From positions 1 to 34,995 of the IMG/VR virus record IMGVR_UViG_3300046167_000495: DNA of 34,995 bases; one strand, given 5' to 3'. Source of the stretch: a virus. The position numbers and the translations under genes were made by a program. The number at the start of each line of letters is the position of its first letter. Within the stretch, counting starts at the first letter, position 1. The notes below the pieces were generated by a model, which made no database searches, had not been told where the DNA came from, and worked only from the letters and a program-made list of their open reading frames with translations. Below are positions 3,614 to 20,473 of this stretch, piece after piece.

Positions 3614-4975
3614 ATGGGCGGCAAATCGAGTCCTGATTACACAGGCGCAGCAATTCAGCAAGGCGAGGCAAACCGTGAGGTTGTAAGAGATCAGACGTTT
3701 GCGAATCGTCCTGATCAATACACGCCTTGGGGTGCGACAACGTGGACGCCTTACTCGTCAACTGATCCCTCAACAGGTCAGGCAACGACCAGTTGGTCGC
3801 AGACTCAAAGCTTAACGCCTGAGTTGCAGGACATACTGAACAAGCAGATTGCTATTCAGTCTGGCAGGTCTGATATTGCTGGCGCATTGACCGGAAGGCT
3901 TGGCGCAGAATTTGGTACGCCGATGGATTGGCGCGGCCTTAATCCTATGGGTCAGGTTCCTACCGCGCAGTTTACATTGCCTGAGAATATTCAGCGTGGC
4001 GTCGATTACTCAGACATACCGACACCTCAAGACCCCATGCAGCAGACTACATTAAACACCGCTGGCATTGAGAGCATTGATTCGCCACAGCAGCAGATGG
4101 GCCTAGACTACTCAGGAATCATGGGTGTGGGTGATGGTAGCTACTATCGCGAACGGGCAGAGAACTCTATTTATGACAAAGGCGCTTCACGGCTAAATGA
4201 TCGCTTTGAGACGCAGCGAGAGCAGACAGAGATAAAGCTAAGAAATCAGGGATTGCGTCCGGGTGATGCGGCCTATCAAGCGCAGATGCAGAGCTTGGGT
4301 CAGCAAGAGACTGACGCTTATGGGCAGCTTCAGAATGACGCAATTATGGGCGGCATGGCTGAGAGCAATCAGATGTTTCAGCAAGATTCCGCACGACGAG
4401 GCATGTATACCGGAGAGCGAGATAGACAGGCGCAGTTCGGCAATCAGGCCCAACAAAACATGTTCAACATGCAGTCTGGATTGCGTGGACAACAGTTTGG
4501 AGAGCGTCAAACTCAAGGGCAATTTGGTAATCAGGCGGCCCAAGACCTTTACGGAATGCAAGCAGATTCAAGGGATCGCTATACGAATGAGCGTGACAGG
4601 GCTGCTGCGTTTTACAACCAGTCAGGGCAGCAGGCGTTTGACCAATCAAGTCAAGCTAACCAGCAGAACTATCAGCAGGCAATGGCAGGCAGTCAGTACG
4701 CCAACCAGATACGCCAGCAGCAGATCACTGAGGCCATGACTAAGCGCGGATTTAGCCTTAACGAAATTAACGGTCTGCTTAGTGGTCAGCAGGTCAACAC
4801 GCCACAAATGCCTAACTTCCAAGGCGCAAGCGCTGCACAGGCTGCACCTATCTACCAGTCGGCTGTTGACCAAGGCAACTATAACGCAGGCATGTCACCG
4901 TGGAATGCCGTGCTAGGCGCAGCGGGTACGTTAGGCGGGGCATACCTTGGCAACCCGTCAGCATTTCCGGGGTAA
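3614..4975 (+). CDS. Virion internal/ejection-type protein, glutamine-rich
   Basis: 453 aa with a near-ideal ribosome site (AGGAGG 7 bases before ATG). The N-terminus carries RPDQYTPWGATTW and a following TSWSQTQSLTPELQ segment, a recognisable beginning of a conserved protein found after the tail genes of many marine and freshwater podoviruses. The middle (about residues 195-360) is helical and Gln/Arg-rich with repeats built on QFGNQA and ERD or ERQ, likely a long coiled coil. The C-terminus is small and hydrophobic (GAAGTLGGAYLG). This fits an ejected internal virion protein; no enzymatic motif is visible. Confidence 0.6.
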   Translation: MGGKSSPDYTGAAIQQGEANREVVRDQTFANRPDQYTPWGATTWTPYSSTDPSTGQATTSWSQTQSLTPELQDILNKQIAIQSGRSDIAGALTGRLGAEFGTPMDWRGLNPMGQVPTAQFTLPENIQRGVDYSDIPTPQDPMQQTTLNTAGIESIDSPQQQMGLDYSGIMGVGDGSYYRERAENSIYDKGASRLNDRFETQREQTEIKLRNQGLRPGDAAYQAQMQSLGQQETDAYGQLQNDAIMGGMAESNQMFQQDSARRGMYTGERDRQAQFGNQAQQNMFNMQSGLRGQQFGERQTQGQFGNQAAQDLYGMQADSRDRYTNERDRAAAFYNQSGQQAFDQSSQANQQNYQQAMAGSQYANQIRQQQITEAMTKRGFSLNEINGLLSGQQVNTPQMPNFQGASAAQAAPIYQSAVDQGNYNAGMSPWNAVLGAAGTLGGAYLGNPSAFPG

Positions 4976-11743: not shown

Positions 11744-12538
11744 ATGAAACACCTACTACTTTTACCACTGTTTGTTTTGGGAGCCTGCACCAGTGTTGAG
11801 GACAAGACAGCGTACAGACAAGCGCAGATTGACATGGTTCGTCAGCAGCAACAAAGCCGAGAAACCATTGCCACCCAGCGCGAGCAAGCCGAAGCTGAGA
11901 AGTGGAAACACGCGGCGGCAATCGTAGCGGCCAACCCTGAGTCAGCAGATGCTTTCGCAGTTGCTATGGCGGTTAGCGTAGTGACTAACAACAACGAGGC
12001 TGACGCCCCTGTGGTGACATTGCAGCGTGAATCTAACGAGGCGCTTGAAGTTGTTAAAGCCGTAGCCCCCAGCCTGATTAACGTACTGGGTACAGTTGGC
12101 ACAGTCGCCTTGAATGCTGATGTGGCGAAGACGCAAAGCAGGAACAACGCTGCTATTCAGATTAACGACAGCCAGCAGGATGCCCGCATTGTGGAGGCCG
12201 TAGCAGGCTTAGGTGTGGCGGCAAGCTCACAAGTTGGTACGTCAGTAGGTGGTGATTACTATGTGACTGGCGGCAACGTAGACCAGTCCACGCAGACCAG
12301 CACCGCAACAACTACCAACACTGAAACAACCACCACCACCAACACGGATAGCAATAACGTGACTGAAGCAGTAACCAACGAGTATGTAACCACGGAAGGT
12401 ACGAACGTAAGCCTAGAGGATATTCAGGCGCTCTTGGCTAATAACCTAGAGGTCACTGTTTTAATTGACGGTGAGGCTGTCGAGGTCGAACAGTGTGAAG
12501 ACGGTGGCCTAACGTTTGGCGGCGATACTTGCACTTGA
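11744..12538 (+). CDS. Phage lipoprotein, Thr/Asn-rich
   Basis: 264 aa. The N-terminus is a lipoprotein signal: MKHLLLLPLFVLGACTS, with lipobox LGAC and the lipidated Cys at about residue 15. Residues 20-60 are a charged helix rich in Gln/Glu; residues about 170-220 are a low-complexity Thr/Asn/Ser tract, and the C-terminus has two Cys (EQCEDGG, DTCT) that could pair. It probably anchors in the outer or inner membrane facing the periplasm. Candidates are a spanin-like lysis component or a superinfection or surface-modifying lipoprotein; nothing in the sequence decides. Upstream AAGGGG serves as ribosome site. Confidence 0.55.
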   Translation: MKHLLLLPLFVLGACTSVEDKTAYRQAQIDMVRQQQQSRETIATQREQAEAEKWKHAAAIVAANPESADAFAVAMAVSVVTNNNEADAPVVTLQRESNEALEVVKAVAPSLINVLGTVGTVALNADVAKTQSRNNAAIQINDSQQDARIVEAVAGLGVAASSQVGTSVGGDYYVTGGNVDQSTQTSTATTTNTETTTTTNTDSNNVTEAVTNEYVTTEGTNVSLEDIQALLANNLEVTVLIDGEAVEVEQCEDGGLTFGGDTCT

Positions 12539-16001: not shown

Positions 16002-16869
16002 TTTTAACTTCCTTCAGTTGTAGTGTTTCCACCAGTTCACCCCGAAACGGCTCTAAGTCCGCTTGAGGCATTAATGATTTAAAGGCTTTGGCGTAACTAA
16101 TAGAGCCTTTGCGTGTTGTCTTTTGGACGCGGTAGTTGAGGCCAACCACGTCACGTTCTTTGGCATGCTCAAACATCAAGCCTTTGAGGTGCTTTGCTGA
16201 TAATTCAGCGCTCGCCAACTTCTTCATTACCGCCTCATATTGCCCCTCAAGAATCAGCCAATCAGCGTCTTGGCTAAGGTCGGCAATGTCGGGGGTATCT
16301 TCCAAGTCTTTAAGGAACTGAACCCAGCCATCACAGATAGCCTCGCGTAATTCAAGGTCAGGCAGATACCATTGGTGACAGCTTTCAGTCTCATTGCTTG
16401 CCATGAACAAACACTGGTCTGCGCCACTCACTAATAACTGCTGTTCCATTTGAATGCGGTGCTGTAAAGGTATCTGTCCTGCGTCAATAGCCGCCTGTAT
16501 CTTTTGGTTCCAAGTTTTGTGTTCCCACAATACGGTGTGTTCCATGTCGATACCGTCAAAGCTTGCCGACAAGCGGCCCTGAATGGCGTCAGGCAGGCCG
16601 TTGCCGTCATAGACCCCAGACATAGGGGCTAAGTCTTCGCCTGCTATCTCGCAAGCAAACGGAAGCGCACGGGCCTCTAACTCATGGCCCTTGGCAAAGA
16701 GCATCTCTTGATAGCTGCTGATGTTCTTTTCTTTGCCCCAGTTGCGAATGAACGCATCTCTAGAGCCATAGCCTTCGCCCATCATTTCAGGTGCTTGGGA
16801 GGCAGTTAGGTGGGTGGCCCTAAATAGGTGCCACTCAGGAGTGCCTTGGTCGAGGTCAACTATCTTCAT
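15994..16869 (-). CDS. YqaJ-family viral exonuclease
   Basis: 291 aa, overlapping both neighbours by a few bases. The order of motifs is that of the YqaJ/lambda-exonuclease PD-(D/E)XK fold: N-terminal LDQGTPEWHLFRATHLTAS, GHELEARA, LSASFDGID (metal Asp), WEHKTW (E-x-K) and HRIQMEQQLLVSGAD (Gln helix). It degrades one strand of duplex ends to give ssDNA for the annealing protein encoded just upstream. A C-terminal helical region (about residues 200-290) is longer than the bare nuclease core. Confidence 0.85.
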   Translation of the reverse strand: MKIVDLDQGTPEWHLFRATHLTASQAPEMMGEGYGSRDAFIRNWGKEKNISSYQEMLFAKGHELEARALPFACEIAGEDLAPMSGVYDGNGLPDAIQGRLSASFDGIDMEHTVLWEHKTWNQKIQAAIDAGQIPLQHRIQMEQQLLVSGADQCLFMASNETESCHQWYLPDLELREAICDGWVQFLKDLEDTPDIADLSQDADWLILEGQYEAVMKKLASAELSAKHLKGLMFEHAKERDVVGLNYRVQKTTRKGSISYAKAFKSLMPQADLEPFRGELVETLQLKEVKNG

Positions 16870-17454
16870 GCAGCCACCTCTGGTTCATTCTCTCGCAGCA
16901 GCTTTTCCAGATCAGCGCTGATGGTGTACTTGCGCTTCCAGTGGGCGATGGCTTTATCCGCAGTGCCGCGTCCCGCCTGAATAGCCTCTATGACCTTCTC
17001 AACAGCGTCTTGTGGGACGTTGGGTTTTACCTTGGGCTGTCTGACCGCAGGGGCAGGTGGTGTGCTGTGCTTGCTGTCTTCACCGTCTAAGTCAGCTTGA
17101 GCCACCCCGGTCATTGCAGCCAATCCATAGCGGCGTAGATAGGTGGTTGCAGAGCCAATGCCTTGGCCGTCCATTTTGGCAGGGACGCAACTCGCCTCAC
17201 TGCTAATACTGCCGCCGCCTGCATGTGCCAGTACCGTAGTTACCGTCACCATATGGACCGTCAAATGCTGTACCCTGAAAGACAGCAATGCCATTTTTTG
17301 AGAGCGCAGGTTTAACGGTGTCGAGGATAGACGCCAAATCAGCGTAGTCAGATTTAAAGTGCGGGTTCTTGGCGTTCTTTGCGGCGTTGACAATCTCGCC
17401 TTGCGCCTTGGCTAGAGCGCCATATAGCTCCGCGTTTCCAGTTTCAGTGTACAT
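16866..17454 (-). CDS. ERF-family single-strand annealing protein, +1 frame change near 17250
   Basis: ATG 17454 has AAGGGAG upstream. The N-terminal part (ELYGALAKAQGEIVNAAKNA, NPHFKSDYADLASILD, KNGIAVFQG) stops in the first frame at 17203. The expected continuation VTVTTVLAHAGGG then QGIGSATTYLRRYGLAAMTGVAQAD, the ERF core signature, lies in the +1 frame and ends at 16866. Dropping one base of the CC at 17249-17250 restores a 195-aa protein, a normal ERF length. It pairs ssDNA made by the adjacent exonuclease. An independent start for the second half is unlikely because the core would be split. Confidence 0.75.
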
Positions 17455-17665
17455 AGTTACTCCCTTCAAGAATCTCACCCAGATAATGCTGGGCCTCTTC
17501 AGCGGCCTCCTCGGTCGCCAGTTCCAGCGCAGCAGTCAGTTGAGTGTGGTTAGCGGCAAAAGTGATCTCACTCACAGCGCTCTCCACAAACACGTTCCAC
17601 TCGCCATTTCTTCGTACAGCGGTCGTGTTAAACCGCAGTCGATCAACTGAGCTTTTCGACAACAT
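17444..17665 (-). CDS. Small hypothetical protein in the recombination operon
   Basis: 73 aa from ATG 17665 (GGAGG 8 bases upstream; the TTG at 17680 is less likely). It contains LSKSSVDRLRFNTTAVRRNGEWNVFVES and an Ala/Glu-rich helix (TAALELATEEAAEEAQHYL). It overlaps the genes on both sides. Function unknown; membership in the ERF-YqaJ operon suggests an accessory recombination or anti-nuclease role. Confidence 0.5.
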   Translation of the reverse strand: MLSKSSVDRLRFNTTAVRRNGEWNVFVESAVSEITFAANHTQLTAALELATEEAAEEAQHYLGEILEGSNYVH

Positions 17666-17918
17666 CAGACATGCCTCCAATTATGTGCCGCAACATATCC
17701 CCGGCACGTTGGTCAAACTTATGGTGGTCACGGGCGTCCATAGCTTCCAAAGCGCTAACAATGTAATTGCTAACCACCTCTTCGCTAACGTCCCATTGTT
17801 CAAGCGTGGTGCCTGCGAATATGCCGTCATTAATCATTGACTCGACACAGGACTTTGGAGACTCGTCGCAGTAATCAATCAGCTTTTGCAGCTTCGTTCT
17901 GTCTTGTTCTAGTTGCAT
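17643..17918 (-). CDS. First gene of the leftward recombination operon, unknown function
   Basis: 91 aa from ATG 17918, which has AAGGGA 5 bases upstream; the longer frame from 17951 lacks a ribosome site. Acidic, mostly helical (EQDRTKLQKLIDYCDE, EVVSNYIVSALEAMDARDHHKF). No motif recognised. It overlaps the next gene by 23 bases and follows the promoter at 17961-17989. Confidence 0.5.
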   Translation of the reverse strand: MQLEQDRTKLQKLIDYCDESPKSCVESMINDGIFAGTTLEQWDVSEEVVSNYIVSALEAMDARDHHKFDQRAGDMLRHIIGGMSDVVEKLS

Positions 17919-17960
17919 AGCATTCCCTTTTTCTTTGCGTTGCAATGTCATACAAAGCGG

Positions 17961-17989
17961 ACGATAAAGGGCTTTAACGGTCTTTGCAA
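17961..17989 (-). promoter_or_regulatory. Sigma-70-like promoter for the recombination operon
   Basis: On the leftward strand TTGCAA (17984-17989) and TATCGT (17961-17966) are spaced by 17 bases, about 45 bases before the first start codon. An imperfect inverted repeat, TACATA...TGTGTA, lies just upstream at about 17995-18012 and could be an operator. Recognised by eye only. Confidence 0.5.
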
Positions 17990-18101
17990 GTGTTTACATA
18001 CAAATGTGTACAGTGATGCTACATGTGGTTAGTATGGCGGGGACGGCATAGGGTATGGCGTGAATAGATACAGAGGTCCGAACATTTAGTCGGATATTGT
18101 G

Positions 18102-18107
18102 TATAAA
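18102..18107 (+). promoter_or_regulatory. Possible -10 element for the gene at 18132
   Basis: TATAAA at 18102-18107 precedes AAGGAG at 18114-18119. An inverted repeat CCGAACATTTAGTCGG (18078-18093) occupies the -35 zone, which could place this promoter under repressor control. No good -35 hexamer is visible. Confidence 0.3.
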
Positions 18108-18131
18108 TCATCCAAGGAGAGGTGTGGGTAG

Positions 18132-18326
18132 ATGGGTTCAGTGGTACAGGATTTAATTAAGTTGAACAGCGAAATGAGTGCAGCAGGGAAGGTAGCAATG
18201 CTTGAAGCTCTCAGCGCCGTTCAGTCGCACGGTCAGCAAGCAACGCAACCAACCGCAACAAATCCTGTTGAGGTAGACGCCGAGACAGATCGCCAATCAG
18301 ACGGCGTAAGTCATCGGGAGCCATAG
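18132..18326 (+). CDS. Small protein convergent with and overlapping the repressor gene
   Basis: 64 aa: GSVVQDLIKLNSEMSAAGKV, then MLEALSAVQSHGQQA. The first 26 residues lie outside the repressor gene and look like a helical protein. The rest is antisense to the last 116 bases of the repressor and is less protein-like. AAGGAG is present but 12 bases from the ATG. It could be a short real gene, or a transcript that acts on the repressor mRNA from the opposite strand. Confidence 0.35.
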   Translation: MGSVVQDLIKLNSEMSAAGKVAMLEALSAVQSHGQQATQPTATNPVEVDAETDRQSDGVSHREP

Positions 18327-18630
18327 CCTCTAACTGCTGCTCAACGTTGATTAAATCATCCGGGGGAACGATAAAGTTCTCTGCTAATGAGGGGTCGATA
18401 TCATAAGGACTGACGCCCAGATACTTAGCAAAGCGGCTAATTGCATTCGCATTTAGGGGTATTCGTCCCAGCATATATTGGCCTGCTGTGCCGACTGTCC
18501 AACCTAACGCCTTAGCCATGTCTCTTTGGGTAACGCCTTCACGCTCCTTCTTTGCCAGCCATAAGCTGTGGATACGTGCGGCAATCTTTTGCTCCTTATC
18601 GGTGAGCTTCCTTCGGTTAGTTATGGTCAT
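18211..18630 (-). CDS. Short HTH transcriptional repressor (lysogeny regulator)
   Basis: 139 aa, AAGGA 7 bases before ATG 18630. A helix-turn-helix of the XRE/cI type spans about residues 33-78 (VTQRDMAKALGWTVGTAGQYMLGRIPLNANAISRFAKYLGV, here in two parts). There is no S24 peptidase domain; the C-terminus is a short helical segment (DDLRRLIGDLSRRLPQQDLLRLVALL) likely for dimerisation. So induction would not be by RecA-stimulated self-cleavage. It lies between the leftward recombination operon and the rightward early operon, the usual place of an immunity repressor. Confidence 0.75.
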   Translation of the reverse strand: MTITNRRKLTDKEQKIAARIHSLWLAKKEREGVTQRDMAKALGWTVGTAGQYMLGRIPLNANAISRFAKYLGVSPYDIDPSLAENFIVPPDDLINVEQQLEAMAPDDLRRLIGDLSRRLPQQDLLRLVALLADRATERR

Positions 18631-18638
18631 CCTTCTCT

Positions 18639-18724
18639 ACCTGTTGATGTAGGGGTCGCTTATAGCATTGCGATACATGCGCTGACAACCTGTTGATTTA
18701 TACAGGCGTGGCAATGCGATACAG
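18639..18724. promoter_or_regulatory. Repressor promoter and operator-like repeats
   Basis: The leftward promoter reads TTGTCA (18683-18688), 18 bases, TATAAG (18659-18664). Overlapping it are paired repeats: ACCTGTTGAT at 18639-18648 and 18688-18697, and TGCGATACA at 18669-18677 and 18715-18723. The second ACCTGTTGAT is half of a dyad, CCTGTT...TACAGG (18689-18706). This is what an immunity operator region looks like. A rightward early promoter should also lie here, but I cannot place it confidently. Confidence 0.55.
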
Positions 18725-18764
18725 AAAAACGCTTGCAATGAAATATGAAGGGGGATTAAGATCG

Positions 18765-19240
18765 GGTCGAGTCAATGGTGTTACCAGCACCGATTGAGAC
18801 CGTGAGCAAGACTGGAAAAGAACGATACACACGACCCAGCGTCATTATACTGTATCCGCCTCTTCCAGCAACACCTCACAAACTCATACACCATTGACCT
18901 CTCTATCAGTTGTCGGGGAAACCACGGCAGGGCTGATTGAAGCGCGGTTACTGTGGGATGTGTTCATAGCCGCAAGGGGACTCGAAAGGTGGAACCCCGA
19001 ACACTCAGGCGCAGATTAGCCTGATTAAGTTGCCACCGAACTCATAGCTACTGCGGTGTATGAGTGACCTAACTGCCGATGTGACGGTGACGGGTGAGAG
19101 AGAGTGAACCTAGGCGAATTCTTTCCTAAGTTCCTCTCTAACCTATCAACCAATGCTCTGGCTCTGGGTGAGTTTTAAGGCATTACAAGAATTCGCTGTA
19201 TTACACAGCAATAGCGGGCCACCGGCTATCAGGTGGAACA
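18765..19240 (+). ncRNA. Candidate large structured RNA or 5' leader upstream of the ParB-like gene
   Basis: About 475 bases without a credible gene but with a dense series of perfect inverted repeats. In order: GTCAATGGTGT 18771-18781 with ACACCATTGAC 18888-18898, enclosing GTGAG/CTCAC, CTGGAA/TTCCAG and GATACA/TGTATC, all nested; ATCAG/CTGAT (18905/18933); GCGGTTA/TAGCCGC (18944/18967); GGGG/CCCC (18976/18995), whose loop holds GGTGG pairing with CCACC 19033; TCAGGC/GCCTGA (19005/19019); ACTCATA/TATGAGT (19040/19059); a 15-pair stem 19099-19139; GCTGT/ACAGC (19195/19205). The strand is assumed rightward, as for the next gene. I do not recognise it as a known class. Confidence 0.45.
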
Positions 19241-19252
19241 CGGGAGAGAAAG

Positions 19253-20473
19253 ATGAAAATTGCAATCAGCAATATAGACCACAACCCGCATCGTGATATG
19301 AAGCGGAACCCTTTGGACAAAGCACAGGTGAAAACCATTGTTGAGTCCATCAATCGAAATAATTGGGGTGAGAACGTCATCGTTCGCAAGCACCCCACCC
19401 AGAAGGGCCGTTATCAACTGGCCTACGGGCATCATCGTCTAGCCGCACTTAAAAATCTTGGCGTCGAGCAAGCTGAGTTTATCGTCAAGGATGTTGATGA
19501 TTGGGCTATGTACACGTGGATGGTTGACGAGAATGAGAGCCAGCGAGAAGTAACGCCTGCCCTCATCTTTGAGAACATCGAAGCTGGAATTAATTTCCTT
19601 GAGCCAATCGTGCGTGAGTGCGAAACGCTGGATGACTTTGAAGCAGTAGTCCCCCGGGGGACTGGTGCTATGAGGCCCGATGCGTACACACAGGTCAGGA
19701 ACAGTCTGCTCAGTGGCGAGGGGCTTGGAGTTAGCTTTCTGTCTAGCACCTTACCCGGCGGTAGCTCTACCCGCCGCGATAACGTGCAGTCTGTGGTGGA
19801 CTCTCACTACGCCAAGACTAAATCACAGGCCAAGCAGAAGCGAGCAGATGCCAAGAAAGCTGAGGCTGAGGCCAAGCGCAAGGCGGCAGAAGCGGCCAAG
19901 TCTGCGGCGGCGGCAAAGAAAGCAAGGGCTGAAGCTGAAAAGCTAGATGCTCAGAGCGCCGAGCTTGAGAGTCAAGCCAAGGCTCTGGACAGCATCATGG
20001 CTCAGAAACTCCTGCTGAAGATGCCGACTACCCGCCACATGACGGAGCTTGCCACGGCTGTAAAGGTTCACAAGATACCAGCGGCTAACCATGCCGACCT
20101 TGTAAGCCACATCCTCAACAACGATGTGAGAAGTAAGCAAGTGCGCCGCGCTGTTGAGCAGTGGTGGTTCGTTGCCAGCGGCGAGTCAGCCAAGCGCCGT
20201 GCCGACACTAAGCGGCAGGAGTTCAGGCGCAAGCACAAGTCCAAATCCCTTGAGGATTTTGCGGCTGAGCTTAACCAGAAAGTCAAGGCGGTAGCCAAGG
20301 AGATTCACGCTGTTCTGAATTACACAGACCAGATTGAAAACCCAAGGCTCCGAGCAAGCCTGTCAGATTCCCTGCTTAATCTTTCAGAGGGCGCGAATGC
20401 TGTCGGGACTGCTCTAAGAAATGAGTCTGACCACCTGACCCCAGACCTTCCAGCTCTGGAATTGGTGAAGTGA
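19253..20473 (+). CDS. ParB-like protein with Ala/Lys coiled coil
   Basis: 406 aa; GGGAG about 8 bases before ATG. The N-terminal 95 residues match the ParB/Spo0J nuclease-like fold: HNPHRDMKRNPLDKAQVKTI, SINRNNWGENVIVRKHP, GRYQLAYGHHRLAALKNLG (the G-x-x-R-like box, here YGHHRLAA). Residues about 185-245 are an Ala/Lys/Glu heptad-like coiled coil (QKRADAKKAEAEAKRKAAEA). The C-terminal helical part is not recognised. First gene of the early rightward operon and directly after the structured leader. Phage ParB-like proteins can be DNA-binding regulators or nucleases; an integrating phage does not need partition, so regulation or DNA modification is more likely. Confidence 0.7.
   Translation: MKIAISNIDHNPHRDMKRNPLDKAQVKTIVESINRNNWGENVIVRKHPTQKGRYQLAYGHHRLAALKNLGVEQAEFIVKDVDDWAMYTWMVDENESQREVTPALIFENIEAGINFLEPIVRECETLDDFEAVVPRGTGAMRPDAYTQVRNSLLSGEGLGVSFLSSTLPGGSSTRRDNVQSVVDSHYAKTKSQAKQKRADAKKAEAEAKRKAAEAAKSAAAAKKARAEAEKLDAQSAELESQAKALDSIMAQKLLLKMPTTRHMTELATAVKVHKIPAANHADLVSHILNNDVRSKQVRRAVEQWWFVASGESAKRRADTKRQEFRRKHKSKSLEDFAAELNQKVKAVAKEIHAVLNYTDQIENPRLRASLSDSLLNLSEGANAVGTALRNESDHLTPDLPALELVK

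Follow-up and report, generated by a model that had tools for sequence, protein, structure and literature searches.

A probable divergent member of the RF02932-type RNA family in the early region of an IMG/VR virus

Put RNAs are encoded 3' of early promoters, putR being about 270 nt from the transcript start, and a put RNA comprises about 70 nt folded into two stem-loops (PMC9378689). GOLLD and ROOL are large structured phage RNAs without known function. They are often found near tRNA genes (PMC12286853). RF02932 (Betaproteobacteria-1 RNA) is typed in Rfam as an sRNA gene; its model holds helices P1, P2 and P5 only, stops short of P6/P7 and has no 5' domain, and neither its accession nor its name was mentioned in the literature searched.

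Here, we analysed a stretch of 34,995 nt (the window) from the IMG/VR virus record IMGVR_UViG_3300046167_000495, in which about 620 nt lacking any plausible gene separate a repressor gene from a ParB-like gene (Table 1). As judged by sequence comparison, this interval very probably encodes a divergent member or homologue of an RF02932-type viral RNA family, lying under the curated threshold. Like HK022 put, it would be a noncoding element that follows an early promoter, within the early transcript of a temperate-type phage, whereas its family core is about three times longer and pseudoknotted. By position, HK022 put is the best functional analogy. GOLLD and ROOL are likewise large and structured; in contrast to them, the RNA described here is shorter, gives no match to their Rfam models and occurs mostly away from tRNA genes.

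An earlier note had pointed to inverted repeats in this block, and all of them were located: an 11-bp perfect pair between GTCAATGGTGT and ACACCATTGAC, three in-register stems inside it (GTGAG/CTCAC, CTGGAA/TTCCAG and GATACA/TGTATC), a 15-pair hairpin and several more stems. A repeat finder with a minimum length of 12 reported no inverted repeat in the stretch. The minimum-energy fold of the noncoding stretch contains more than ten helices. When compared with 100 dinucleotide shuffles per strand, its energy gave a z of -2.24 on the plus strand and -2.63 on the minus strand, and 1 of the 100 shuffles was as good in each case. Thus, the anticipated extensive folding was observed, but the energy excess is only moderate. 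Fold energy by itself is borderline evidence for a structured RNA; the decisive support comes from homology. These z values of only -2.2 to -2.6 would also suit an ordinary noncoding spacer with stems formed by chance; such a spacer is most improbable, given matches to RF02932 and to an independent model far above background, and covariation across the family. The block is indeed noncoding, as had been proposed: its homologue L003 carries a 1-nt and a 4-nt indel inside it, so that no reading frame is conserved and a coding sequence is ruled out.

At gathering thresholds, Rfam gave zero matches in the window, including none to GOLLD, ROOL or HEARO, the models that the note had named for such a search. 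An unbiased Rfam scan with E-values shown revealed RF02932 at 18902-18994 with 33.9 bits (E of 1.5e-4 in 801 b and 0.0097 in 53 kb). Neither the window nor L003 reaches the gathering cut-off of 49.4 bits at this score, which makes the window sequence a divergent homologue rather than a curated RF02932 member. We do not retain the idea of a wholly new RNA family, as the core falls within RF02932. The window shares with RF02932 the loop motif GUCGGG..AAA..ACGGCAG, the 19-nt spacing, ACUGUGGG, helices P1 and P2 and their order; it differs in a diverged 3' half, in P5 strands that appear to have diverged, and in additional hairpins after P4.

The same homology was found with R2, a covariance model of P1, P2 and P4 built from 39 other viral sequences, the window being excluded. 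R2 scored the window at 36.5 bits (E of 1.8e-6 in 653 kb) and L003 at 36.8 bits, and P1 and P2 are present with their conserved loops. Relatives score 84-123 bits (Acidovorax phage AP1, 84.6; MW202545, 91.0), while the best other match reaches 8.9 bits in viral loci and 28.0 bits in 297 Acidobacteriota genomes. A search of 199 Acidobacteriota genomes with RF02932 returned weak GC-rich matches (best, 30.5 bits), which were taken as background. On an Acidobacteriota contig with McrB-like and recombinase-like genes nearby (L008), positions 429-511 score 26.9 bits with RF02932 and 15.3 bits with R2. This is a possible very distant homologue; about two chance matches are expected for its pattern, and we give it little weight beyond its matching stems.

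Relatives were collected with patterns derived from the conserved loops. These patterns led to L027-L037 in viral contigs, 10 of the 11 exceeding the RF02932 cut-off at 98-112 bits. The eleventh, L032, is not a family member; it carries a NiCo riboswitch (3854-3947, 77.7 bits) on a contig classed as viral. A second, strict pattern matched at least 120 stretches in IMG/VR, from which eight coding or chance matches were dropped and 73 had enough flank. Matches L013, L046, L055, L063, L072, L092, L094, L102 and L107 were rejected as coding or chance, and L014 as coding by eye. It should be noted that the pattern letters (TACTGTGGG and GGYGGCGAAG) are invariant because of how the sequences were picked, unlike the varying columns used for covariation.

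The core of these viral relatives covaries strongly, as the proposal of a structured RNA had called for. Alignment A6, with 39 nonredundant members and without the window sequence, contains five covarying helices with 92.4% of cells paired. Double-change cells number 264; the shuffles gave 83, with none of 500 reaching the observed count, and slid versions gave 61 or fewer. In the relatives' core, P3 crosses P2 and P5 crosses P4; the core is thus two interlocked pseudoknots. With homologues of this kind and a window scoring as a divergent member, the earlier proposal of a large, folded noncoding RNA or leader is borne out. In the 3' part of relatives such as L039, L042 and L062, a P6-loop motif such as CTCCGAAAGGCA reappears nearly unchanged after P7 (CACCAAAAGGCA). 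Copies of this type vary together between viruses, and the repetition may be a sign of alternative pairing. Repeated units of the AGAGTAGGTA type directly follow the RNA in L042, L082 and L109.

In the window, P1, P2 and P4 are preserved with their own letters in the R2 alignment. P3 and P5-P7 are proposed there by analogy with relatives; for P5, GGUGG at 18988-18992 has several candidate partners. The window and L003 differ most at 18802-18880, where each still forms a long hairpin with different pairs.

Table 1. Features of the repressor-ParB interval and its borders (positions in the window).
Feature	Position	Strand	Basis
Cro/C1-type repressor gene, divergent from the RNA	18211..18630	-	Pfam HTH_31/HTH_3 and PHROG repressor matches; 99% identity in L003
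Operator-like direct repeats ACCTGTTGATGTA/ACCTGTTGATTTA and GCATTGCGATACA/GCAATGCGATACA	18639..18723		Repeat search; putative operator role
Promoter-like TTGCAA-18-TAAGAT, predicted start ~18765-18770	18733..18762	+	Sequence; kept in L003; analogy with relatives
5' hairpin H0, ~15 pairs; loop altered but hairpin kept in L003	18765..18801	+	Folding, L003 comparison
P0-like 11-bp long-range helix, 5' strand; alternative to H0	18771..18781	+	Pairing analysis
Inner arm, three in-register stems; re-paired with altered sequence in L003	18802..18879	+	Folding, L003 comparison
11-bp helix, 3' strand; abuts P1 like P0 of relatives	18888..18898	+	Pairing analysis
Helix P1 with conserved loop GUCGGGGAAACCACGGCAG (18912-18930)	18902..18940	+	RF02932 and R2 matches
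Helix P2 GCGGUU/AGCCGC around conserved ACUGUGGG	18944..18973	+	RF02932 and R2 matches
Proposed pseudoknot helix P3 GUGUUC (18960-18965)/GAACAC (18999-19004)	18960..19004	+	Position as in relatives; by eye
Helix P4 GGGG/CCCC with conserved CGAA	18976..18998	+	R2 alignment
GTGACGGTGACGG, near-match to GCGACGGTGACGG in P6 region of relative L034	19081..19093	+	By eye
Terminal hairpin GAACCUAGG...CCUAAGUUC, P7-like	19098..19139	+	Fold; by analogy
Module boundary, end of L003 similarity	19178..19180		Comparison with L003
Separate short leader hairpin CCACCGGCTATCAGGTGG, part of ParB module	19208..19252	+	Kept in L002
ParB-like gene, first downstream	19253..20473	+	Pfam ParB_N 31.4 bits; PHROG ParB-like

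L003 is 95% identical to the window over 16865-19178 and then diverges completely, and its downstream gene is of the ParB-methyltransferase type, unrelated to the ParB-like gene of the window. Conversely, L002, an otherwise different virus, shares with the window the ParB gene (89% identity) and a leader hairpin of about 45 nt, and lacks the RNA. These comparisons indicate that the RNA ends at about 19178 and belongs to the repressor-side module. Of the block first delimited at 18765-19250, the part up to about 19178 is gene-free and folded as described, whereas about 19208-19252 belongs with the ParB gene. The hairpin CCACCGGCT.TC.GGTGG lies just 5' of the ParB-like start codon in the window and in L002 (~3945-4000), with different upstream regions, and may regulate ParB translation. 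A riboregulator or riboswitch serving the ParB-like gene alone, as once suggested, would agree with the ParB-like genes found immediately 3' of the RNA in the window, L003 and L029. This reading is very unlikely: the block's final ~70 nt are part of the ParB module, the RNA is conserved in L003 beside a replaced gene, L002 carries the same ParB without it, and the downstream genes of most relatives are other than ParB-like. The RNA lies in the early region and is independent of its downstream gene.

Two pairs of direct repeats, 13 nt each with spacings of 49 and 46 nt, lie between the repressor and the RNA and look like repressor operators. The promoter that follows them is a weak match to the consensus (8/12 positions) and was not listed by the promoter scan; we infer its use in this virus by analogy with relatives, as a good sigma-70-like promoter lies upstream of the RNA in 34.5% of relatives versus 2.7% of control windows. 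Moreover, the relatives carry a 5' module. A long helix P0 that runs up to P1 was found in 32 of 59 sequences (57 relatives, the window and L003), scoring above the 95% level of mismatched controls, and the loop of the preceding hairpin H0 pairs with the P0 arm as a kissing loop (mean score 19.0 versus 13.1, sd 2.9). The core is preceded in 31/57 relatives by a terminator-like stem and T run, versus 0/244 control windows. An intrinsic-terminator-like site follows the core in only 2/58, and most copies therefore probably lie within running transcripts, which favours a role in cis.

Transcription would proceed rightward from the repressor-facing early promoter, and the RNA would make up the initial ~410 nt of this early (lytic) transcript. 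Alternative hairpins would form in the 5' domain, followed by a core with P2/P3 and P4/P5 interlocked as in relatives. The folded RNA would then work in cis upon the complex that transcribes it, for instance by rendering host RNA polymerase resistant to pausing or termination, as does HK022 put, whose genomic position is comparable. The downstream gene swapped in L003 beside a retained RNA speaks for this cis action. Against it stand the terminator-like stem of relatives, upstream and not downstream of the core, the weak promoter match of the window, the length and pseudoknots of the core, which set it apart from put, and P5 and the 3' half of the window, which have no confident alignment. The RNA has the position of put/EAR-type elements, that is, in a leader of the early region or within an operon whose transcript runs on, which is consistent with such a role but not specific to it. 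Action on polymerase in cis, taken alone, is proposed tentatively. A broader version appears rather unlikely, namely a widespread viral RNA class whose double-pseudoknot core would reprogram a host machine, RNA polymerase or another, without the help of a protein, with a promoter, a kissing-loop hairpin pair and a conditional terminator 5' of the core, the window being a divergent clade without the terminator.

Nearly as likely as the cis role is a trans-acting phage RNA, an equally tentative reading in which the core would be processed from the early transcript or transcribed apart from it, and would serve as a stand-alone structured RNA with a target in the host or the phage, the mode of action supposed for GOLLD and ROOL. 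The varying neighbours, the enriched promoters and the sRNA type given to RF02932 would fit this, as would L029, where a promoter-like sequence and an intrinsic terminator flank the RNA by eye. The rarity of terminators 3' of the core weighs against it, as do L030, L034 and AP1, where the RNA directly follows a primase gene and the 5' module is absent. In L154 (MW202545, 3229-3804), the RNA is immediately preceded by six tRNA genes, a neighbourhood like that of GOLLD and ROOL, whereas 25 of the 28 related loci scanned have no tRNA gene (3/28 have any); the window has none.

The relatives sit in early regions. Their upstream neighbours include Cro/YdaS-like regulators (7/48) and Toprim primases (5/48), and RecE/RecT-like, ParB-like, primosomal and replication-initiation proteins are also encoded nearby; a partition/helicase/primase operon of AP1 and of MW202545 has the RNA behind its primase gene. 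In AP1 (OM049504), the core occupies about 11853-11983, between the primase and the gene after it. No fixed partner gene emerges, which disfavours regulation of one gene. The primase, primosome, helicase and ParB-like genes among these neighbours could suggest a role in phage replication, either as an origin or priming RNA or, through the inverted repeats, as a DNA site. We consider this improbable, because the covariation is of RNA type, with G-U pairs and pseudoknots, and because the location varies between replication, regulatory and other genes.

Overall, the best explanation is a divergent RF02932-type RNA carried on the early transcript and acting in cis on the transcribing complex, a reading that we favour while holding it to be somewhat short of probable.

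The window alone, used as a nucleotide query, found no match in phages or plasmids. Eleven diverse members used as queries matched 2 of 50,697 named phage records, and a five-member query gave no match in plasmids. With more than 100 IMG/VR stretches versus two named phage records, this is mainly an RNA of environmental viruses. RF02932 has been a little-noticed Rfam entry; its relatives found here come from viruses, abound among environmental ones and hardly occur in records of named phages, and the Rfam model lacks their two pseudoknots as well as the regulatory module on the 5' side. Divergent members can hide under curated thresholds, and Acidovorax phage AP1 offers a named phage with a defined, mutable structure for functional tests.
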